DNA of 56,573 bases from Gemmatales bacterium. Lineage in GTDB: Bacteria; Planctomycetota; Planctomycetia; Gemmatales; HRBIN36. Positions 6,161 through 56,458 of the stretch are shown in pieces. The translations under genes and the position numbers were made by a program. Each line of letters opens with the position of its first letter. Within the stretch, counting starts at the first letter, position 1. The notes beneath the pieces were generated by a model, which did not search any database, was not told the DNA's origin, and saw only the letters and a list, made by a program, of their open reading frames with translations. The stretch is from assembly GCA_025055835.1 (NCBI GenBank), contig JANWWR010000126.1:1-56573 (forward strand), written 5' to 3'.

Positions 6161-6847
6161 ATGCTGGAAAAGACAGGCAATCTGGCGAGCCGAGGGCATC
6201 GGCCCTCCGCTTCCTCCCTCGCCAGCATCCTTACCTTGGTCCTGTTCCTCGCCACGTTGCTCGCCGTCCCCTTCGCCTATTACCGCGACCGCTACACCAC
6301 GACCAAGCGCTTCCGCGTCGTCGCCGAGGGGGTTCTTTATCGCAGTGGACAGATGACCGCCGAAGGTTTAGCGGAAGTGATCGACCGCTACGGCATCCGC
6401 ACGGTGATCAATCTCCAGGACGAAACCCCCGATCCTTTGCTGGAGAACGGTCAGACGGAGAGCGAATTCTGCCGAGACCGCGGTATCCGGTATGTTTACA
6501 TGCCTCCCGATCTGATTCCCCGGCAATTCGTGCCGGAGCAACGGCCAGCCGCCATCGACCGCTTTTTAGACATCATGAACGACCCGCAGAATCATCCGGT
6601 TTTGCTGCATTGTCGGGCTGGTCTGCATCGGACGGGAGTGCTGGCAGCAGTCTATCGCATGGAATATGACGGCTGGACAACCCGACAGGCGCTGGAGGAG
6701 CTGAAAGCCAATGGTTTCGGCGACAGCAAGGCCATCGCCAGCAACGATTACATCATGCAGTACATCTTGACCTACACTCCGAGTTCCGACCGGAACCGAC
6801 CATTGTCCCTCACCCCGTCCTTTTGCCCAGAAAAGCGGGTGGAGTAA
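6161..6847 (+). CDS. Membrane-anchored dual-specificity/tyrosine phosphatase-like protein
   Basis: The product is a 228-residue protein with one N-terminal membrane helix (about residues 22-42) followed by a phosphatase domain. The P-loop signature HCRAGLHRTG contains the nucleophilic cysteine and the conserved arginine, and an upstream aspartate in YMPPDLIP could serve as general acid. The segment FRVVAEGVLYRSGQM is typical of the bacterial DSP-like / cyanobacterial-type tyrosine phosphatase group. The start is supported by AGAGGAA in front of the ATG. Active-site residues appear intact. It is followed 40 bases later by the LptF-type permease, and both may be co-transcribed. The substrate (phosphoprotein or phosphoinositide-like) cannot be assigned. 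Confidence 0.85.
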   Translation: MLEKTGNLASRGHRPSASSLASILTLVLFLATLLAVPFAYYRDRYTTTKRFRVVAEGVLYRSGQMTAEGLAEVIDRYGIRTVINLQDETPDPLLENGQTESEFCRDRGIRYVYMPPDLIPRQFVPEQRPAAIDRFLDIMNDPQNHPVLLHCRAGLHRTGVLAAVYRMEYDGWTTRQALEELKANGFGDSKAIASNDYIMQYILTYTPSSDRNRPLSLTPSFCPEKRVE

Positions 6848-14007: not shown

Positions 14008-15852
14008 CTATTCAGGACCGAGCCAACGCACCTGGACTCTGTCACAACCCATAACAACGTATTCCGGCAAGACCGCTTTTCGCAAAAAGCCGTCGATTTC
14101 CGGCAGCAAACTCCGTTCCACTTGCTCAGCGGTCTGTTCCGAACCGGTGGCTGTAATCTGAACCGTCAAGCTGGCCGGTCGGCGGCTCAGGCGTTGATGC
14201 AGGGCCTGAAGCAGCGTCTGGCCTTCCCGCAGCGGCGGTTCCACCGTGTAGTGCCAATACCACACATAGAGCCGACGTTCCGTTCCCGCGGGATACTCGA
14301 ACCGCTGAACCGGACGCTGGGAGGACTGGTTCAGGAATACGACGCGGCGACGGTCTCGCAGGTCGGGCATCCCGGCCACCTCGTTCATGCAAATCTCCGG
14401 GTGATGCTCCCGATCCTTGCCCGCGGCGGAGTACACCAGATAGAGGTTGGCTCCCAGGCGCGCCTGCGGTTCCACATATTGGCGAAGGAACAGATCGTCG
14501 GCGAAAGTGATGCGTTCTCGCAGCTTCGCGATATCGGCCCGTTCGCCGGCCTGCCAGGTTCCCAACTGCTCCGGCAAACGATCGAGCGGCACCGGCAGGG
14601 TCGGTCCGCGTCGCACTGCCCCGGCTTCCAGGTGCCACAGCAGCAGGGCCTGAACGACGACGCCAAGAAACACGGCCCCAGTGCCGCCGAGGACGCCGAG
14701 AGGCGACAATCGCAAGGTCAGGGGCCCGACCGGAGGGCTGACGCCCTCTGCTGGCTTCATCGGAGGGCTGACGCCCTCCGCTCGCCGGGGTCCTGCGTCT
14801 GACGCTGTTTCGTTGCCTCGAAGCGATGGACGCGACGGCGAGCGGGCAGCGTTAGCTGCCTGGTTCACGGCAGGGCTGACGCCCTCTGCTGGCTTCACCG
14901 GAGGGCTGACGCCCTCCGCTCGCCGGGGAGATTCGCCCTCCGCCTGGCTCAAGGTTTCAAGGCGTTGCAAGGCCCAGGTGAACAGCAACAACAACCCGAT
15001 GGCGACCGGGAAGGTAAACAACGCCGGGGCGCTGTGCAGCCAGGTGTCGATCCAGGCGGTGCCGAACCACTTCGCCGCCACGACCATGGCAATGACCCGG
15101 GCAACGTTCGCCAGGATCGCCACCGGCACGGTCGCCAGCATCAGCACGATTGTGGACCACCACCGCTTCAGACCCAGATGGGCCAGTAATGCGGACATGG
15201 CCAGCAGCGAAATCAGTTGCCGCAGCCCACTGCATTCCGCCCCCACGACCAGAGGGGCCGCCATGCCGGGCAACTCGATGGCATGACCACGCTGCCGAAC
15301 GACCCAGATCTGCTCCAGCACCAGACCACTCGCCCGGGCCACGAAATCCTGAAGCCACAACGCCGACGACGCCATGACGATGCCGGGCAAGGGGAACATG
15401 AAGAACAGGAACGCCAGCGGCACGGTCAACCCGTCGGCACAGGGTCGGCCATGCAGGGCCAGAGCCAGACCACGCAGGCACAGAAACAGGCCCACGAAAT
15501 CCACCAGCGGCCAGCCCAGCACCAGTGCGGCCCAATGAATCAGGACGCCGGCGCTGACTTCCAGCGTTCCCAGGGCCGGTTCCGGAACGAAGCGGGGACG
15601 GTTTTCCCGGAACCAGCGGTAAACCAGCCAGCCGGTCAACGGAAGGACCAGAAATCCATGCGAATATCCCGGATCGTCCCACCAGACCTGCGCCAGATTC
15701 GCTAGCGTCGGCCAGAAGAGCAGGGCGACCAGGGCCACCAGGACGGCGAAAATGCGGACGGCGTCGCGGCCCTGGATCGTCGGCCGCAGCAAACGGTCGC
15801 TGATCCGATGTCGGGCGGTCGCGGAAGGTGCCGTGGCCGTGCCTGCGCTCAT
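14008..15852 (-). CDS. Exosortase fused to an EpsI-type domain
   Basis: This 614-residue membrane protein has an N-terminal exosortase/archaeosortase domain (about residues 30-300, multiple helices) with the active-site cysteine in GAECSGLRQ, the arginine in NVARVIAM and the histidine in WLHSAPAL. A linker at about 305-377 consists of repeat-encoded sequence (AEGVSPP units). The C-terminal part (about 378-614) resembles the EpsI/DUF3485 domain, with HHPEICMNEVAG and YWYHYTVE-like motifs. Exosortases are transpeptidase-like enzymes that process C-terminal signals on exported proteins; EpsI is linked to exopolysaccharide assembly. Fusion of the two is known in other bacteria. Start is the ATG at 15852, with only a weak GGGAAG upstream. 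It is co-directional with the TPR gene. No PEP-CTERM-type substrate is visible in the window. Confidence 0.9.
   Translation of the reverse strand: MSAGTATAPSATARHRISDRLLRPTIQGRDAVRIFAVLVALVALLFWPTLANLAQVWWDDPGYSHGFLVLPLTGWLVYRWFRENRPRFVPEPALGTLEVSAGVLIHWAALVLGWPLVDFVGLFLCLRGLALALHGRPCADGLTVPLAFLFFMFPLPGIVMASSALWLQDFVARASGLVLEQIWVVRQRGHAIELPGMAAPLVVGAECSGLRQLISLLAMSALLAHLGLKRWWSTIVLMLATVPVAILANVARVIAMVVAAKWFGTAWIDTWLHSAPALFTFPVAIGLLLLFTWALQRLETLSQAEGESPRRAEGVSPPVKPAEGVSPAVNQAANAARSPSRPSLRGNETASDAGPRRAEGVSPPMKPAEGVSPPVGPLTLRLSPLGVLGGTGAVFLGVVVQALLLWHLEAGAVRRGPTLPVPLDRLPEQLGTWQAGERADIAKLRERITFADDLFLRQYVEPQARLGANLYLVYSAAGKDREHHPEICMNEVAGMPDLRDRRRVVFLNQSSQRPVQRFEYPAGTERRLYVWYWHYTVEPPLREGQTLLQALHQRLSRRPASLTVQITATGSEQTAEQVERSLLPEIDGFLRKAVLPEYVVMGCDRVQVRWLGPE
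14729..14937. repeat. Palindromic in-frame repeat cluster in the exosortase linker
   Basis: Two perfect copies of the 20-base palindrome CGGAGGGCTGACGCCCTCCG (8-base stems, TGAC loop) lie at 14761-14780 and 14899-14918. Diverged copies lie at 14731-14750 and 14870-14887. A second palindrome module, GGGCAGCGTTAGCTGCC, is at 14844-14860. All are translated on the minus strand as AEGVSPP-type peptides within the linker between the exosortase and EpsI domains, without breaking the frame. Confidence 0.9.
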
Positions 15853-17961: not shown

Positions 17962-19500
17962 TCATGGACGACGGATCACGCCGTCGAGGTCCGGTTGCAA
18001 CAGCCGAGCCGATCGGCCAAACTCGTGCAGGATCGCCTCGGCTGCCAGATAGCCGCTGCGGACCGCGCCTTCCATCGTGGCCGGCCAGCCGGTTCGCGTC
18101 CAATCCCCCGCCAGGTACAGCCCGGGTAGCGTGGTTTTTTGCGGCGGTCGCACCTGATCTACACCGGGCCGAACGCTGAACGTCGCTGATTTTTCGACAA
18201 TGACCCGGGAACGGATCAGACGTGCTGATTTAACAGCAGGAAACAGACGGAGCATTTCGTCGGTGACGAGGTCGAGAATGGCTTGCGTCATCGAAGCACT
18301 AGCTGCTGACGACGGTGAGCGGGCAGCGCGAGCTGCCTGGGGGACCGGAGGGCTGACGCCCTCCGCTCTGCTCACCGGAGGGCTGACGCCCTCCGCATCC
18401 CCCGAAACCCGAAGCGTCAGCGAGGGCAAACCCGCTCGCCCATTTGAGAAGTGAGAGTCACTGATGACGATTTGCAGATAGTATTCCTCCGGCCCCGTCC
18501 TGCCGCGATTGAAAATCCACTGGCTGACGCCCCCCACCAACACGACGTGAGGCAGAGGCCGAGGTACTCCCCGACGCCCCGGCTCGTTCGGAAGCACAGG
18601 CCGGTCATACCACAAATGCACGCTGGTGATCGGCGACGTTTGCAGATGCCGCAAGCGGGACAATTCCTCACGGCCTTCGATGATTTCACCTGGAAGCAAA
18701 GTCAGGACGCGGTCAAACGGCACGGCCAAAAGACAGGCATCGGCCTCGAGGGTTTCACCGTTGCGCAGCCGCACCCCGACTGCCCGCCCCTCCGCGAAAA
18801 GTACCGCCTCAGCAGCCGTATTCAGCCGTACCGTGCCGCCTCGTTCTGCCAGATACTCGGGGACCCGTTTCCCGTACAACTCGACCAGCGGCACCGACGG
18901 CACCTGCACCACGCCGCCGCGTCGGTCCTTGAGAAACGCTTCGACGAACACCTGCCGGGCATACCGGAAGCCGACGTTTTCCGTCGCCTCGTTCAACGCG
19001 CTGACCAGCACCACGTCCCAAAACTTCCGGATCAGGTCCGACGTCTGTCCGTGCCTGGCTAACCACTCGGCGAACGGTGGATCATCGCTTCGGTCATCTC
19101 GCCACAGGGCCAATAGTGCCCGGCCGATCCGGATTTTTTCCCGAAGACTCAGAAAATGTGCTCCGGCAAAGGCGGGCAACTGGTGCAGCGGCGCGGGCCA
19201 AGGGGCCGTCTGCCAGCGGGTCACCCGGCCGTCCGGCGTCATGAAGAACAGGGCGGCCTGCGGTTGCAGAAAACGCTCGACACCCAGGCTCCGACAAAAG
19301 TATGCGAAGTTCGTGCAGCAGCCCATCGAGACGTGCTGGCAGGTGTCCAGCACTAACCCGCTGGCCGAGTCCGTGAAGGAACTCGCCCGGCCTCCCAGTC
19401 GTGGCCGCGCTTCAAGCAAAGTTACACGGCAGCCGTTGTCCGCCAGGGCGGTCGCCGCTGCCAGTCCCGCCAACCCTCCCCCCACGATGAGAACGTGCAT
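17962..19500 (-). CDS. hpnE: Hydroxysqualene dehydroxylase HpnE
   Basis: HpnE is an FAD-dependent amine-oxidase-fold enzyme that reduces hydroxysqualene to squalene, the last step of the HpnCDE route. The N-terminus has the dinucleotide-binding motif VLIVGGGLAGLAAATAL and the LLEARPRLGGRASSF motif, followed by the family-typical DTCQHVSMGCCTNF segment. The C-terminus has the FAD-closing motif GLYLAGDWTRTGWPATMEGAVRSG. Residues of about 354-401 are repeat-derived (SLTLRVS and AEGVSPP units plus an alanine/arginine/serine stretch) and form an extra loop, making the 512-residue protein longer than usual. It starts 6 bases after hpnD and is the last gene of the operon. Confidence 0.93.
   Translation of the reverse strand: MHVLIVGGGLAGLAAATALADNGCRVTLLEARPRLGGRASSFTDSASGLVLDTCQHVSMGCCTNFAYFCRSLGVERFLQPQAALFFMTPDGRVTRWQTAPWPAPLHQLPAFAGAHFLSLREKIRIGRALLALWRDDRSDDPPFAEWLARHGQTSDLIRKFWDVVLVSALNEATENVGFRYARQVFVEAFLKDRRGGVVQVPSVPLVELYGKRVPEYLAERGGTVRLNTAAEAVLFAEGRAVGVRLRNGETLEADACLLAVPFDRVLTLLPGEIIEGREELSRLRHLQTSPITSVHLWYDRPVLPNEPGRRGVPRPLPHVVLVGGVSQWIFNRGRTGPEEYYLQIVISDSHFSNGRAGLPSLTLRVSGDAEGVSPPVSRAEGVSPPVPQAARAARSPSSAASASMTQAILDLVTDEMLRLFPAVKSARLIRSRVIVEKSATFSVRPGVDQVRPPQKTTLPGLYLAGDWTRTGWPATMEGAVRSGYLAAEAILHEFGRSARLLQPDLDGVIRRP
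18316..18440. repeat. Palindromic in-frame repeat cluster inside hpnE
   Basis: Two perfect copies of CGGAGGGCTGACGCCCTCCG occur at 18346-18365 and 18376-18395. The second palindrome GGGCAGCGCGAGCTGCC is at 18321-18337. A third module of 24 bases at 18404-18427 (starting GAAACCCGAAGCG) is identical to one in hpnC at 20473-20496. The whole cluster is translated within hpnE without frameshift or stop. Confidence 0.9.
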
Positions 19501-19506
19501 CGGTCG

Positions 19507-20367
19507 TCACATCCACCCGAACCGCACTGGAATCGCTTCCATCACCAGGCCGATTTTTCGCCAAGGGCTGAGACTGGCTCGCTGTCGCAAGTGTTCGACT
19601 CCCCGGTGTGCCACGACGTCAAGAACGCCCCGATAGATGCGGGTCATGACCTGGAACACCGCTCGCCCCGCCGGTTCCAGTAAATCCCGCAAAGGAGCGG
19701 CAAGGTCGTAGTATTGGTAGGCTCGCTGCAATTGAAACTGCATGAACTCGCGAAACCGTGCATCAAGGCGTCCTTGGAGCAAATGCTCCTCGGAACAGCC
19801 AAAGGCGAGCAGCTCCTCCAACGGAAGATAGATACGTCCCCGTTGTGCGTCCTCGAACAGATCGCGGAGGATGTTTGTCAATTGAAAGGCGATGCCGGAC
19901 CATTCGGCGTAGTGCTTGGCTCGTTCGTCCCGGAACCCCCAGACGTGGATGCACGCCAGGCCGACCACGGAAGCGACCCGGTAACAGTAGCGGTACAGTT
20001 CGGCGAAGGTGGCATATCGGCTGCGAATCAGGTCTTCCTGCACGCCGTCGAGCAACTCCTGAAGGTATCCCGACGGGATGCGGTAGCGGTTGACCGTGTC
20101 CACCAAGGCCGGATGCACGAGATGGGTCGGACGTCCCTCCAGGGCGTCAACCAGTCCGCGCCGCCAGGCTTGCAGAGCGACCCATTTCTGCTCGACCGGA
20201 TCGGCCGAGTCGGCGATGTCGTCGGCGATGCGCATGAACGCATAGAGGGCGTGCATGGCCCGCTGCTGGGCGCGGGGCAGGATCAAAAAGGCGTAGGCGA
20301 AATTGCCCGCCCGGCTGCGGGTCAGTCGTTCGCACCACAAATAAGAGCTTGAGATGCCTGTCGTCAC
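19507..20367 (-). CDS. hpnD: Presqualene diphosphate synthase HpnD
   Basis: HpnD condenses two farnesyl diphosphates into presqualene diphosphate. It has the trans-isoprenyl diphosphate synthase, head-to-head type, fold with two aspartate-rich motifs: DDIAD in YAFMRIADDIADSAD near the N-terminus, and NILRDLFEDAQRGRIYLP in the second half. The longest frame starts at 20412 inside hpnC, but a GTG at 20367 overlaps the hpnC TGA as GTGA, has GAGG eight bases upstream, and removes residues encoded by the hpnC repeat tail. The resulting protein is 286 residues, normal for the family. Gene order hpnC-hpnD-hpnE matches the known three-enzyme pathway to squalene. Confidence 0.93.
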   Translation of the reverse strand: MTTGISSSYLWCERLTRSRAGNFAYAFLILPRAQQRAMHALYAFMRIADDIADSADPVEQKWVALQAWRRGLVDALEGRPTHLVHPALVDTVNRYRIPSGYLQELLDGVQEDLIRSRYATFAELYRYCYRVASVVGLACIHVWGFRDERAKHYAEWSGIAFQLTNILRDLFEDAQRGRIYLPLEELLAFGCSEEHLLQGRLDARFREFMQFQLQRAYQYYDLAAPLRDLLEPAGRAVFQVMTRIYRGVLDVVAHRGVEHLRQRASLSPWRKIGLVMEAIPVRFGWM

Positions 20368-21413
20368 GCTGTTGCCTCGTGCACCGGAGGGCTGACGCCC
20401 TCCGCTCGCCACATCTGTTCGCTGACGCCCTCCGCTCTGTTCACCGGAGGGCTGACGCCCTCCGCTCGCCTAGAAACCCGAAGCGTCAGCGAGGGCCAAC
20501 CCGCTCTACGTAGCCACCGACCCAGGACCGCTCTCACGATCAGGGCCGCTTTCTCGACCCGGCTCAGCGTCGGACGCCGTTTCCACACGTCATACCCCTG
20601 GGCCACGATCCGATCGAGAATCGCCTCACCCCCCCGGATGAACAACTCGATCTCGATCTGCATCTCCCTCGGCATTCGTTCGATCAGAGGCCGACCCCGC
20701 TCGAAGAAGTCTCGGGCACGCTCCACTTCGAACGCCATCAACTCCCGAAACGCCGGGGTAAACCGCCGCTGACGCAAATCGGCATCGGCGTATCGGAAGC
20801 GTTCCCGATCTTCCCGCGGAAGATAAATCCGTCCGATGTCCCAATCGCGGCGGACGTCTTGCCAGAAATTGGCCAGTTGCAGTCCGGTGCAGATGGCATC
20901 GGACAATGCCGCTCGCTCCGGGTTGTAACAGCCGGTGACGTGCAGAATCAATCGGCCGACGGGATTGGCCGAGCGTCGGCAGTAGTCAAGCAACTGCTCG
21001 AAGGTCTCGTACTCCTTGACCACCTGATCCTGCTCGAAAGCGGATAACAGGTCGAGGAAGGGATCCGGCGGAATGGCGAAGGTCCGGATCGTTTCCTGAA
21101 GGGCGATCAGGACCGGATGCCGCGGCGTGCCGTCGTAGCAATCGAGCAACTCCTGACGCCACCATCCCAGCAGTCGGCGTGCCTCGGCGGGATCAGTTTC
21201 GTCGCCGAGGTCGTCGGCCCAGCGGCAGAAGGCGTAAAGATGATGGAAATGCCGCAGCAAGCGACGCGGCAGCAACAGGGAAGCCACGCTGAAGTTTTCA
21301 TAGTGCGTCAGGGCAAGATGACGGCAATAGCTGCGAGCTTCGGGAAGACTCACGGGACGCAGCGGCTGATCGGGTCCGTAGCGCCGCAAATGTTCGGCAA
21401 ACGTTGTGCTCAT
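20364..21413 (-). CDS. hpnC: Hydroxysqualene synthase HpnC
   Basis: HpnC converts presqualene diphosphate to hydroxysqualene. It is a homologue of HpnD with the same fold: the first aspartate motif is in FCRWADDLGDETD and the second in NFWQDVRRDWDIGRIYLP. The catalytic core ends near residue 302. The last 47 residues are entirely repeat-derived (SLTLRVS followed by three AEGVS units) and are not expected in the family, so the C-terminus has been extended by repeat insertion. The stop overlaps the hpnD GTG. Squalene could feed hopanoid or sterol synthesis; no cyclase gene is in the window. Confidence 0.92.
   Translation of the reverse strand: MSTTFAEHLRRYGPDQPLRPVSLPEARSYCRHLALTHYENFSVASLLLPRRLLRHFHHLYAFCRWADDLGDETDPAEARRLLGWWRQELLDCYDGTPRHPVLIALQETIRTFAIPPDPFLDLLSAFEQDQVVKEYETFEQLLDYCRRSANPVGRLILHVTGCYNPERAALSDAICTGLQLANFWQDVRRDWDIGRIYLPREDRERFRYADADLRQRRFTPAFRELMAFEVERARDFFERGRPLIERMPREMQIEIELFIRGGEAILDRIVAQGYDVWKRRPTLSRVEKAALIVRAVLGRWLRRAGWPSLTLRVSRRAEGVSPPVNRAEGVSEQMWRAEGVSPPVHEATA
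20385..20506. repeat. Palindromic repeat cluster forming the hpnC tail
   Basis: Perfect copies of CGGAGGGCTGACGCCCTCCG lie at 20385-20404 and 20445-20464, with a half copy (CGCTGACGCCCTCCGCTC) at about 20420-20437. The 24-base module shared with hpnE lies at 20473-20496. The cluster occupies the last 47 codons of hpnC and ends about 18 bases before the hpnD start codon. Confidence 0.9.
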
Positions 21414-38268: not shown

Positions 38269-38566
38269 GGGACCTCATCCTTTCGGCAACCCGACTACCT
38301 CCGCAGTTCGCGGAGGCTCGTGGCTTTCCGTCCCCGCCTCGCGACGGGTTTGGCGTTTCGAGTCCGAGGCAGCAGTTGCTCGCCCCAGGACAGGATGTCC
38401 GATAATTCGATGCAAAACTAGCACGTCAATCGCCGATGTCCAGCGCCACGGCGATATTTCTTTTCGGGTGGACTTTGCTCCGAAATGAACCATTTCGCCG
38501 CGAGCAAGATTTCACGGCCTGACGAAAAGCAGAAATGCCGACGAGGCAAACCCCGCCCTTTGCAGG
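38269..38566. other. Intergenic region upstream of the protease gene
   Basis: This stretch of 298 bases separates the large kinase gene from the protease, both on the minus strand. It holds a perfect 7-base inverted repeat CCTCCGC-5-GCGGAGG at 38298-38316, about 30 bases before the protease start, without a following T run. On the minus strand TTGACG (38429-38424), N16, AATTAT (38407-38402) is a candidate promoter for the protease. No gene is supported here. Confidence 0.35.
38402..38429 (-). promoter_or_regulatory. Candidate promoter for the HtrA-like protease
   Basis: On the minus strand TTGACG (5/6) is followed after 16 bases by AATTAT (4/6), about 135 bases before the protease ATG. The GATAATTCGA sequence here also occurs within the tandem repeat at 32681-32690 beside the nuclease promoter, which may or may not be meaningful. 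Confidence 0.3.
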
Positions 38567-43935: not shown

Positions 43936-45501
43936 ATGCTGATGGCGAACCCACGGTTGAATCGTCTGGCACTCGGTCTGTATCTTGTCGCGGCCGTCGG
44001 ATTGACCGTTGCCGTTTCTGTGCCGTTCCTTCGCAAAACCGACAGCCAATTCGACAATGTCTACCTGCGAGCCGCCCAGCGGATGCAGGCCGGGCAGGAC
44101 ATCTATCCGCTCGAAGACGGGTATCTCTATCCGCCGTTGATGGCCTGGCTGGCCATCCCGCTGACGTGGCTTTCGCCGCAAACAGCCCGCGTGATCTGGC
44201 TTGGGATCAATCTCGCCGGTCTCGGGTACATTCTGCGAACCGCCTGGAAGCTGTCCGGCGGCGCTTCGGTTTTCCGCGGAAACGATGGGAAGGAGCATCT
44301 GATCCTGTGGGCCGGTTTGCTTTGTGCCCTGCGGTATGGCTTGGACTGCCTTCAGAACCAACAGACGGACATCGTCGTTATCGCTCTGGTCCTGGCCGGA
44401 TGCCGGCAGCTTGCGTTGACGTGCTGCGTTTCAAGCCGTTTCTCGTTGCCGCTCGCTGTCGGCTGTTTGGGCTTGGCGGCCGGCATGAAATGCACACCGC
44501 TCCTGTTCGCTCCCTATCTCGTGGGGCGGGGCCGCTGGGCAGCGGGGCTGGGAGTCGGCGTCCTAGCCGTGGTCCTGAATCTGCTGCCGAACCTGACCGC
44601 CTCACCTCCTGACGGTGGTCTGTGGTTTGGTGAATGGATCGAGCGGTACTTGTCGCTGCTGGCCCGTTCGGACCACCATCCGGGCGTGTGGGGCAGTGCG
44701 GTGACCCTGAACCAATCATGGTCGGGGGCCGTCTATCGCTGGCTGGCGACGACGTGGACCTGGGATACCGGCGGCGTGCGGGTTGTCACCGTGGAACCGT
44801 TGCTGACGCCGATGGCGATGAAGCTTGTGGTGTACGGCAGTGAATTAGCAGTGATCGCAATAATCGTTGGGATAGCGAGCGGGCAGGGTCATTGTTTCGT
44901 GACGGCAAGCGAGGAGGGTATTTGTTTCATGAGGGCGAGCGGGCAGCGTGGGCTGCCTGGTGAAGGCGCGGTTGCACGGAGGGCTGACGCCCTCCGCTCG
45001 GATCCTTCGAACGACGCCCTCCGCTCGGGTCCTTCAAATGACGCCCTGCGCTTGGATCTTTTAAATGAAAATGTCCGCTTGGTGGCGATTGAATGTGCGG
45101 TCGTGTTAACGCTCATGGTGTTACTGTCGCCCATGTCCAGCAAGCCCCATTTCTTCGTGCTTCTGTTACCGGCATGGATTCTCGCCCGACAAGCCGTTCG
45201 GCATCGGGATTGCATCAGCGGGGCGATTCTCGTCCTGGCCACTTTAACGGGGATGCTGACGATCAAAGACCTCGCTGGGCCGAACCTGGCCAACCTGGCC
45301 ATGTGGTACGGCGGAGTGACGTGGAGCACGATTCTACTTCTGATCGGAGTGGTGCGCTTGCTCTGGCGGGGAAAAGCTCACAGCGAACAGGACACCGACT
45401 CACGCCGAGCGGCCCGCGGACCAGGAGCGGTTCAGCCGATCGCCGTGCAACTCCGCCAACTCCCGCAGCCGGGCACAAAGGCCCTCGACATCGAGTCCTA
45501 G
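43936..45501 (+). CDS. GT87 (DUF2029) family polytopic glycosyltransferase-like protein
   Basis: The product is a 521-residue membrane protein with about ten hydrophobic helices. The first loop has DNVYLRAAQRMQAGQDIY and YLYPPLMAWLAIP, the aspartate and YPP motifs characteristic of the GT87/GT-C polyprenol-sugar-dependent mannosyltransferase family. Residues of about 313-375 are a repeat-encoded insert (ADALRS units) between helices. The last 34 residues overlap the convergent dxs gene and are hydrophilic, probably added by loss of an earlier stop. ATG 43936 and ATG 43942 are both possible starts. The likely role is transfer of a sugar to an envelope glycan; donor and acceptor are unknown. 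Confidence 0.82.
   Translation: MLMANPRLNRLALGLYLVAAVGLTVAVSVPFLRKTDSQFDNVYLRAAQRMQAGQDIYPLEDGYLYPPLMAWLAIPLTWLSPQTARVIWLGINLAGLGYILRTAWKLSGGASVFRGNDGKEHLILWAGLLCALRYGLDCLQNQQTDIVVIALVLAGCRQLALTCCVSSRFSLPLAVGCLGLAAGMKCTPLLFAPYLVGRGRWAAGLGVGVLAVVLNLLPNLTASPPDGGLWFGEWIERYLSLLARSDHHPGVWGSAVTLNQSWSGAVYRWLATTWTWDTGGVRVVTVEPLLTPMAMKLVVYGSELAVIAIIVGIASGQGHCFVTASEEGICFMRASGQRGLPGEGAVARRADALRSDPSNDALRSGPSNDALRLDLLNENVRLVAIECAVVLTLMVLLSPMSSKPHFFVLLLPAWILARQAVRHRDCISGAILVLATLTGMLTIKDLAGPNLANLAMWYGGVTWSTILLLIGVVRLLWRGKAHSEQDTDSRRAARGPGAVQPIAVQLRQLPQPGTKALDIES
44875..45060. repeat. Palindromic repeat cluster inside the GT87 gene
   Basis: One perfect copy of CGGAGGGCTGACGCCCTCCG lies at 44977-44996, with half copies at about 45013-45027 and 45040-45054. 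The second palindrome, here GGGCAGCGTGGGCTGCC, is at 44941-44957, with a partial copy (GCGAGCGGGCAGGG) at about 44877-44890. The gene is on the plus strand, so the element is read in the opposite sense to the other three host genes, giving ADALRS instead of AEGVSPP. Confidence 0.88.
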
Positions 45502-56385: not shown

Positions 56386-56458
56386 GCCCCCATCGTCTAG
56401 GGGCCTAGGACATAGCCCTCTCAAGGCTAAGACAGGGGTTCGAATCCCCTTGGGGGCA
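56386..56458 (+). tRNA. tRNA-Glu (anticodon CTC)
   Basis: The 73-base sequence folds as a complete cloverleaf: acceptor stem GCCCCCA/TGGGGGC, D-arm with TCTAGGGGCCTAGGA, anticodon stem TAGCC/GGCTA with loop CTCTCAA giving anticodon CTC at 56420-56422, and T-arm CAGGGGTTCGAATCCCCTT-type with GTTCGAAT. The discriminator base is A, and the 3' CCA is not encoded. It decodes GAG. Confidence 0.95.

Follow-up and report, generated by a model that had tools for sequence, protein, structure and literature searches.

The short repeat that lies inside four genes of a stretch of a Gemmatales genome is likely a REP element, usually arranged in inverted REPIN pairs, and its transposases are likely Y1 (HUH) enzymes of class 3 (TnpA_Y1). 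The window analyzed here is the whole stretch of 56,573 nucleotides (contig C220) of a draft assembly that comprises 3.86 Mb in 221 contigs. Hundreds of hairpin copies have probably been spread by a dedicated transposase, as judged from the analysis of copies, flanks and transposase loci presented below.

Seven exact copies of the 20-mer CGGAGGGCTGACGCCCTCCG were found in the window, together with three copies that carry 1–3 mismatches, against a chance expectation of 0.02. The 20-mer consists of CGGAGGGC-TGAC-GCCCTCCG, that is, an 8-bp stem and a 4-nt loop. The first-pass annotation, made from the letters of the window, had called it a perfect palindrome of 20 bases; this reading is ruled out, as the TGAC loop has no pairing and only 8 bases pair across the stem. 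Its report of seven intact copies, with diverged and half copies, in four unrelated genes was borne out. The exact copies are distributed as two in the exosortase/EpsI gene, two in hpnE, two in hpnC and one in the gene of a GT87 glycosyltransferase, and half copies and inverted partners accompany them. Read with its flank as a 28-mer, the repeat has five open frames out of six, and only the plus frame with TGA in it is closed, which agrees with the earlier count of three minus and two of three plus frames; the in-gene copies are real and keep the frame of their hosts, as had also been claimed. Chance hairpins are ruled out by the reversed-sequence controls and by the chance expectation. No Rfam family matched the window's REPs or either of the transposase loci described below. 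The features of the window are the following, with G001 denoting a congener of the source organism:

6190–6209, minus strand: diverged REP (3 mismatches) in the N-terminal end of a small ORF, whose true start may be further downstream.
14008–15852, minus strand: exosortase with a C-terminal EpsI-type domain, 614 aa (Pfam PF09721 and PF11984; NCBIfam 8TM_EpsH).
14729–14937, no strand assigned: REP cluster coding for the exosortase–EpsI linker within the minus-strand gene 14008–15852; the G001 orthologue is about 53 aa shorter here.
14731–14750, plus strand: REP hairpin with 1 mismatch to the 20-mer, exosortase/EpsI gene.
14761–14780, plus strand: exact REP hairpin, exosortase/EpsI gene.
14837–14864, minus strand: inverted REP with another stem (GGGCAGC/GCTGCC) and the foot GGCGAGC; left half of the REPIN 14837–14924.
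14869–14888, plus strand: REP hairpin with 3 mismatches, exosortase/EpsI gene.
14899–14918, plus strand: exact REP hairpin; its foot CTCGCC closes the REPIN 14837–14924.
17962–19500, minus strand: hydroxysqualene dehydroxylase HpnE with an internal REP-coded insert at about residues 352–397 (TIGR03467, 461 bits).
18314–18341, minus strand: diverged inverted REP in hpnE.
18346–18365, plus strand: exact REP hairpin in hpnE.
18376–18395, plus strand: exact REP hairpin in hpnE.
18408–18426, plus strand: second repeat CCCGAAGCGTCAGCGAGGG, adjoining the REPs in hpnE.
20364–21413, minus strand: squalene synthase HpnC with a REP-coded C-terminal tail (TIGR03464, 350 bits); the tail is absent in G001.
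20385–20404, plus strand: exact REP hairpin in the hpnC tail.
20445–20464, plus strand: exact REP hairpin in the hpnC tail; a half copy (20423–20438) lies between both exact copies.
20477–20495, plus strand: second repeat CCCGAAGCGTCAGCGAGGG in hpnC.
43936–45501, plus strand: GT87 family glycosyltransferase with an insert between hydrophobic segments (PF09594); the insert is absent in G001.
44934–44961, minus strand: inverted REP in the GT87 gene, where it forms the left half of a REPIN-like pair.
44977–44996, plus strand: exact REP hairpin in the GT87 gene, followed by half copies at 45012–45027 and 45039–45054.

The linker that joins the exosortase domain to the EpsI domain is encoded by the REP cluster of that gene, in agreement with the earlier proposal that the copies fill it. 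In HpnE, the REP-coded insert is the only stretch of the AlphaFold2 model that is predicted to be disordered (mean pLDDT of 82; residues 352–397 are the sole segment below 50). The window also contains a c-di-GMP-I-GGC riboswitch aptamer on the minus strand (38281–38363; Rfam RF03167, 66.8 bits) and a tRNA gene on the plus strand (56386–56458; Rfam RF00005).

The genome-wide search with mismatches that had been proposed for the 20-mer returned 123 copies within 2 mismatches; the reversed pattern gave no match. The wider family was surveyed in 59 stretches of the same genome plus the window (641 kb) using a general definition of the hairpin: an 8-bp stem in which 7 or more positions pair, a TNAC loop and then CTCG. 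This definition gave 207 matches versus a single one in the reversed sequence. The 207 hairpins comprise 45 different stems, the commonest of which is that of the 20-mer, and three or four types of Watson–Crick pair occur at several stem positions. Their flanks define two subfamilies, AC...CTCGCC and CA...CTCGG, with the feet GGCGAG and CCGAG on the opposite strand. The foot is conserved, and the GTAG or GTGG head of classical REPs is absent next to the hairpin. The repeated unit is an inverted REP doublet with a short spacer: 29 doublets with outward, matching feet span 58–88 nt, feet included. Their two arms often differ in stem, and their anatomy is that of REPINs. Many inverted pairs, at 42–47 bp, were also found in the related genomes G010 and G099. 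A second repeat, CCCGAAGCGTCAGCGAGG(G), lies beside many REP clusters, and the stretches fetched from the source genome contain 75 copies of it when 2 mismatches are allowed; in the form CCCGAAGCGTCAGCGAGGG it is an imperfect hairpin with a GTCA loop, as in the REPs, which it often adjoins. REP copies often lie close to contig ends (e.g., C4:82, C96:8, C183:121 and C204:1180), so that their number is probably underestimated in the draft assembly.

Two genes of the genome match the Pfam family Y1_Tnp, here termed RAYT1 (contig C10) and RAYT2 (contig C193). The two are 44% identical and each gene is present as a single copy, which differs from the multi-copy mobile transposase gene of IS200/IS605 elements. 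RAYT1 is flanked on both sides by several REPs of subfamily 1, including the exact 20-mer, and RAYT2 by REPs of subfamily 2 with the stem CGGCGGGC, one upstream and two at the downstream end. Because hairpins of the family flank both transposase genes, the repeats and the transposases are taken to form a REP/RAYT system. The best matches of RAYT1 are Pfam Y1_Tnp and NCBIfam REP_Tyr_transpos, the latter with 33 bits, below the curated cut-off of 80. An alignment of RAYT1, RAYT2 and 30 homologues shows that H98, H100, Y160 and Q165 are invariant in all 32 proteins; in RAYT1 the HUH motif is THVH and the Y----Q motif is YVLERQ. The Y---NP motif of Class 2 RAYTs is absent, with no NP after Y160 and the invariant Q instead. 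The distance from Y to Q is one residue shorter in RAYT2 and many relatives. At the level of its sequence motif, RAYT1 fits the class 3 TnpA_Y1 proteins. The C-terminal tail of RAYT2 (L099, 8771–9382) is itself REP-coded (RSAEGESPSGG...).

The hairpins are widespread in the order. A search of 102 of its genomes for the pattern GCTNACGCNNNNNGCTCGCC was positive in 69, with up to 318 copies, against 0–3 control matches per genome. Median REP counts are 19 in genomes with a strong RAYT match, 5 with a weak one and 0 with none, and the count is higher with any RAYT match than without (Mann–Whitney p ~5e-7, a value that is not corrected for phylogeny). Across 84,980 species genomes, matches to the exact 24-mer CGGAGGGCTGACGCCCTCCGCTCG were confined to Gemmataceae and other planctomycete MAGs. 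Hairpins with the feet GGCGAG or CCGAG and other stems flank the transposase homologues of G058, G060, G044 and G001, and that of G078 on one side only; a constant foot with varying stems is expected if the foot and the loop are recognized while the stems drift. Many other RAYT loci of relatives have no GGCGAG-footed hairpin within 1.5 kb. One genome, G042, matches the 20-mer at 72 sites with up to 2 mismatches (loci L175–L183; feet CCGAG or CTGAG), and no Y1 transposase was found in its assembly. It either harbors an orphan REP population or lacks the gene in the assembly.

The location of the copies bears on a proposal of the first-pass annotation, namely that the repeat is adapted to life inside genes. 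According to a home-made codon-usage gene finder, on which the in-gene calls rest, 39 of the 207 hairpins lie in genes and 168 (~81%) outside, in sequence that is ~85% coding. Hairpins are thus strongly depleted in genes, and the window, in which every exact copy lies in a gene, is atypical of a genome where the majority is intergenic; the count of coding versus intergenic copies, which had been suggested as a check, speaks against the in-gene reading. Adaptation to in-gene life has been suggested for the Rickettsia palindromic elements, and here it would mean a selfish element whose sequence has been shaped for open frames and tolerable peptides. We consider this very unlikely. It would accommodate the use of all six frames by the in-gene copies, which occupy the TGA/TAA-reading plus frame only through TTAC or TCAC loops, and the presence of essential-type enzymes among the hosts (RuvC, Fmt, UvrA and HpnE), but it conflicts with the depletion just described. 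Moreover, 89% of 28-mer shuffles have 5 or 6 open frames, so that composition alone accounts for the openness and no adaptation needs to be assumed, and the lack of stop-reading loops in genes is a requirement of any open reading frame. The spacing of neighboring copies on the same strand is a multiple of 3 in 11 of 11 cases within genes versus 15 of 37 in intergenic sequence. In-gene copies are probably translated as extra floppy linkers that leave the protein unbroken. In G010 and G099, raw ORFs in GC-rich DNA are uninformative on in-gene status, and the stem filter missed the G010 variant. Several matches in large genes (L091, L093, L095 and L101) that had 4–5 mismatches and lacked the CTCG flank were taken as chance and excluded.

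Further hosts of in-gene copies are RuvC, a DnaE-type polymerase, UvrA (at three places), Fmt, a PDH-type E2, an aldehyde ferredoxin oxidoreductase, a histidine kinase, an ATP-grasp protein and a protein that we take to be Tex from our own reading of its sequence with an S1 domain. On inspection, DNA-repair genes appeared frequent among them. The uvrA gene (L085 on contig C153, 3–5720) encodes repeated domains, of which more than 1,900 aa are seen, with REP arrays at the three places; its orthologues in the order have open frames of ~2,300 aa. The sequences L067 1–2910 (C72) and L068 1–348 (C76) are probably one DnaE-type polymerase gene split over two contigs, and the break between them may be due to the repeats.

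Alignment of the host genes with orthologues reveals empty or shorter sites. In G001, the exosortase, HpnE, HpnC and GT87 genes lie on one contig and lack all four inserts, and the HpnE orthologues of other families have a short linker at the insert site. The claim that a repeat family has spread into reading frames without breaking them is upheld. The precise ends of the insertions and any target duplications could not be resolved by DNA alignment with G001 because its linkers are too diverged. At other sites, G001 shares the insertion in a decayed form: REP remnants with 7/8 pairs occur in Fmt and at site 3 of UvrA, the latter with a CTCGCTG flank; E2, RuvC and Tex each retain half copies. 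Relatives of other genera have neither insert nor remnant at the UvrA, Fmt, E2, RuvC and Tex sites. The shared remnants indicate that some insertions probably took place before the two species diverged, and the sequence comparison suggests that these have probably decayed in one congener and expanded in the other since then. Two observations had been named beforehand as arguments against the reading of the first-pass annotation. One of them, that copies are mostly intergenic, is what was found; the other, the same peptide at the same place in distant relatives, is not seen, with G001 remnants at shared sites other than those of the window.

Such old sites could also be read as arrays that have been co-opted, with linker peptides or mRNA hairpins that have a selected function, e.g., in flexible spacing or translation control. 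The decayed remnants in UvrA, Fmt, PDH E2, RuvC and Tex and the position of arrays at linkers, such as those of exosortase–EpsI and lipoyl-E2, would be compatible with it. However, the G001 remnants have mostly lost both the peptide and the hairpin sequence, as neutral linkers would, an equivalent insert is absent in other families, and the two congeners differ in how many copies an array contains. A selected function of the arrays is therefore highly improbable.

A further explanation dispenses with the transposases, which would be relics or serve another function, and attributes the spread of the repeats, above all in genes, to homologous recombination, gene conversion and replication slippage at hairpins. 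Several observations are in line with this: tandem arrays with a 30-bp spacing occur, near-identical REP array segments are found at two different protein positions of the DnaE-type polymerase gene (C72 and C76), the inserts of hpnE and hpnC have a flanking repeat sequence in common, and G042 is rich in copies with no Y1 transposase found. By contrast, the many unrelated sites, the covarying stems, the feet at the ends of the units and the flanked transposase genes are features of a transposase substrate, and transposition is compatible with local growth of arrays. Spread by recombination alone is thus considered unlikely.

In the preferred reading, the repeats are REPs and REPINs mobilized by class 3-type Y1 transposases, and we infer the mobility of the family from the analysis as a whole. 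By analogy with RAYT biology, the transposase would recognize the foot and the hairpin in single-stranded DNA during replication and would mobilize the foot-to-foot pair. Most copies would settle between genes; a copy in a gene would survive only when it is divisible by three in length, adds no stop to the frame and sits in a linker or loop that tolerates it. As suggested by the spacing and the identical segments, arrays would then grow and shrink through in-frame tandem duplication, often of 30 bp, and local copying, and the product would be a disordered linker rich in Ala, Gly, Ser, Pro and Arg that is tolerated rather than selected. A more far-reaching reading is that a REPIN/transposase lineage of this order's own (GGCGAG foot, GTNA loop, class 3 Y1) has repeatedly entered conserved enzymes, where it became long-lived, in-frame, expanding disordered linkers; this is put forward tentatively, as somewhat doubtful. 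If true, a selfish hairpin read in all six frames would be a regular source of protein linkers. Conserved enzymes show a graded series, with empty sites, single remnants and expanded arrays, in which the conversion of a mobile hairpin into a protein linker can be studied.

The closest known proteins are the class 3 TnpA_Y1, which, in the short section devoted to them (BMC Genomics 2018, PMC6006769), are described as mainly from Planctomycetes and flanked by atypical high-copy hairpins, with the remark that "Further experimental analyses are required". The system described here agrees with that section in its planctomycete host, the HUH and Y----Q motifs, the several flanking hairpins and the high copy number. 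The feet found here are not a clear case of the class 3 foot CnGA: the CCGAG of subfamily 2 contains CCGA, and the GGCGAG of subfamily 1 contains GCGA. The system differs in the Y–Q distance, shorter by one residue in RAYT2 and many relatives, and in the REPIN pairing and in-gene arrays, features that the class 3 section does not include. Beyond that section, a description of the family in Planctomycetes was not found in the literature consulted. With the present hairpins, class 3 TnpA_Y1 proteins gain candidate substrates, with a foot, a loop, a foot-to-foot pair and many covarying stems, and together with genomes across the order that have or lack the gene these make binding and cleavage directly testable.

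The inverted doublet as repeated unit, the REP-flanked transposase and the hundreds of mostly extragenic copies are shared with the REPINs of Pseudomonas fluorescens (PMC3116915) and their RAYTs (PMC2817692), from which the present system is distinguished by the lack of a GTAG head and of the Y---NP motif and by doublet stems that often differ.

The resemblance to Rickettsia palindromic elements noted in the first-pass annotation holds, in that palindromic repeats are inserted in frame within unrelated proteins and are absent from orthologues. The sequence is different, according to the description given in that annotation, and the repeats of the present system flank transposase genes and have a REPIN architecture.

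Intragenic REPs with GTAG and CGTC tags have been reported, most of them in O. terrae and R. conorii, those of R. conorii being equated with RPE-4 and RPE-6, and their hosts are often DNA-repair genes, including uvrA and DnaE-type genes (BMC Genomics 2013, PMC3733652). As in that study, the copies described here are mostly intergenic, and those inside reading frames are single, dimeric or clustered and lie in unrelated genes, among them uvrA and DnaE-type genes. Unlike those REPs, they have a foot without a GTAG or CGTC tag, a transposase of another class and in-frame tandem arrays in which one hairpin recurs every 30 bp. Intragenic REPs are already published, and here they are found with another transposase class and another foot.
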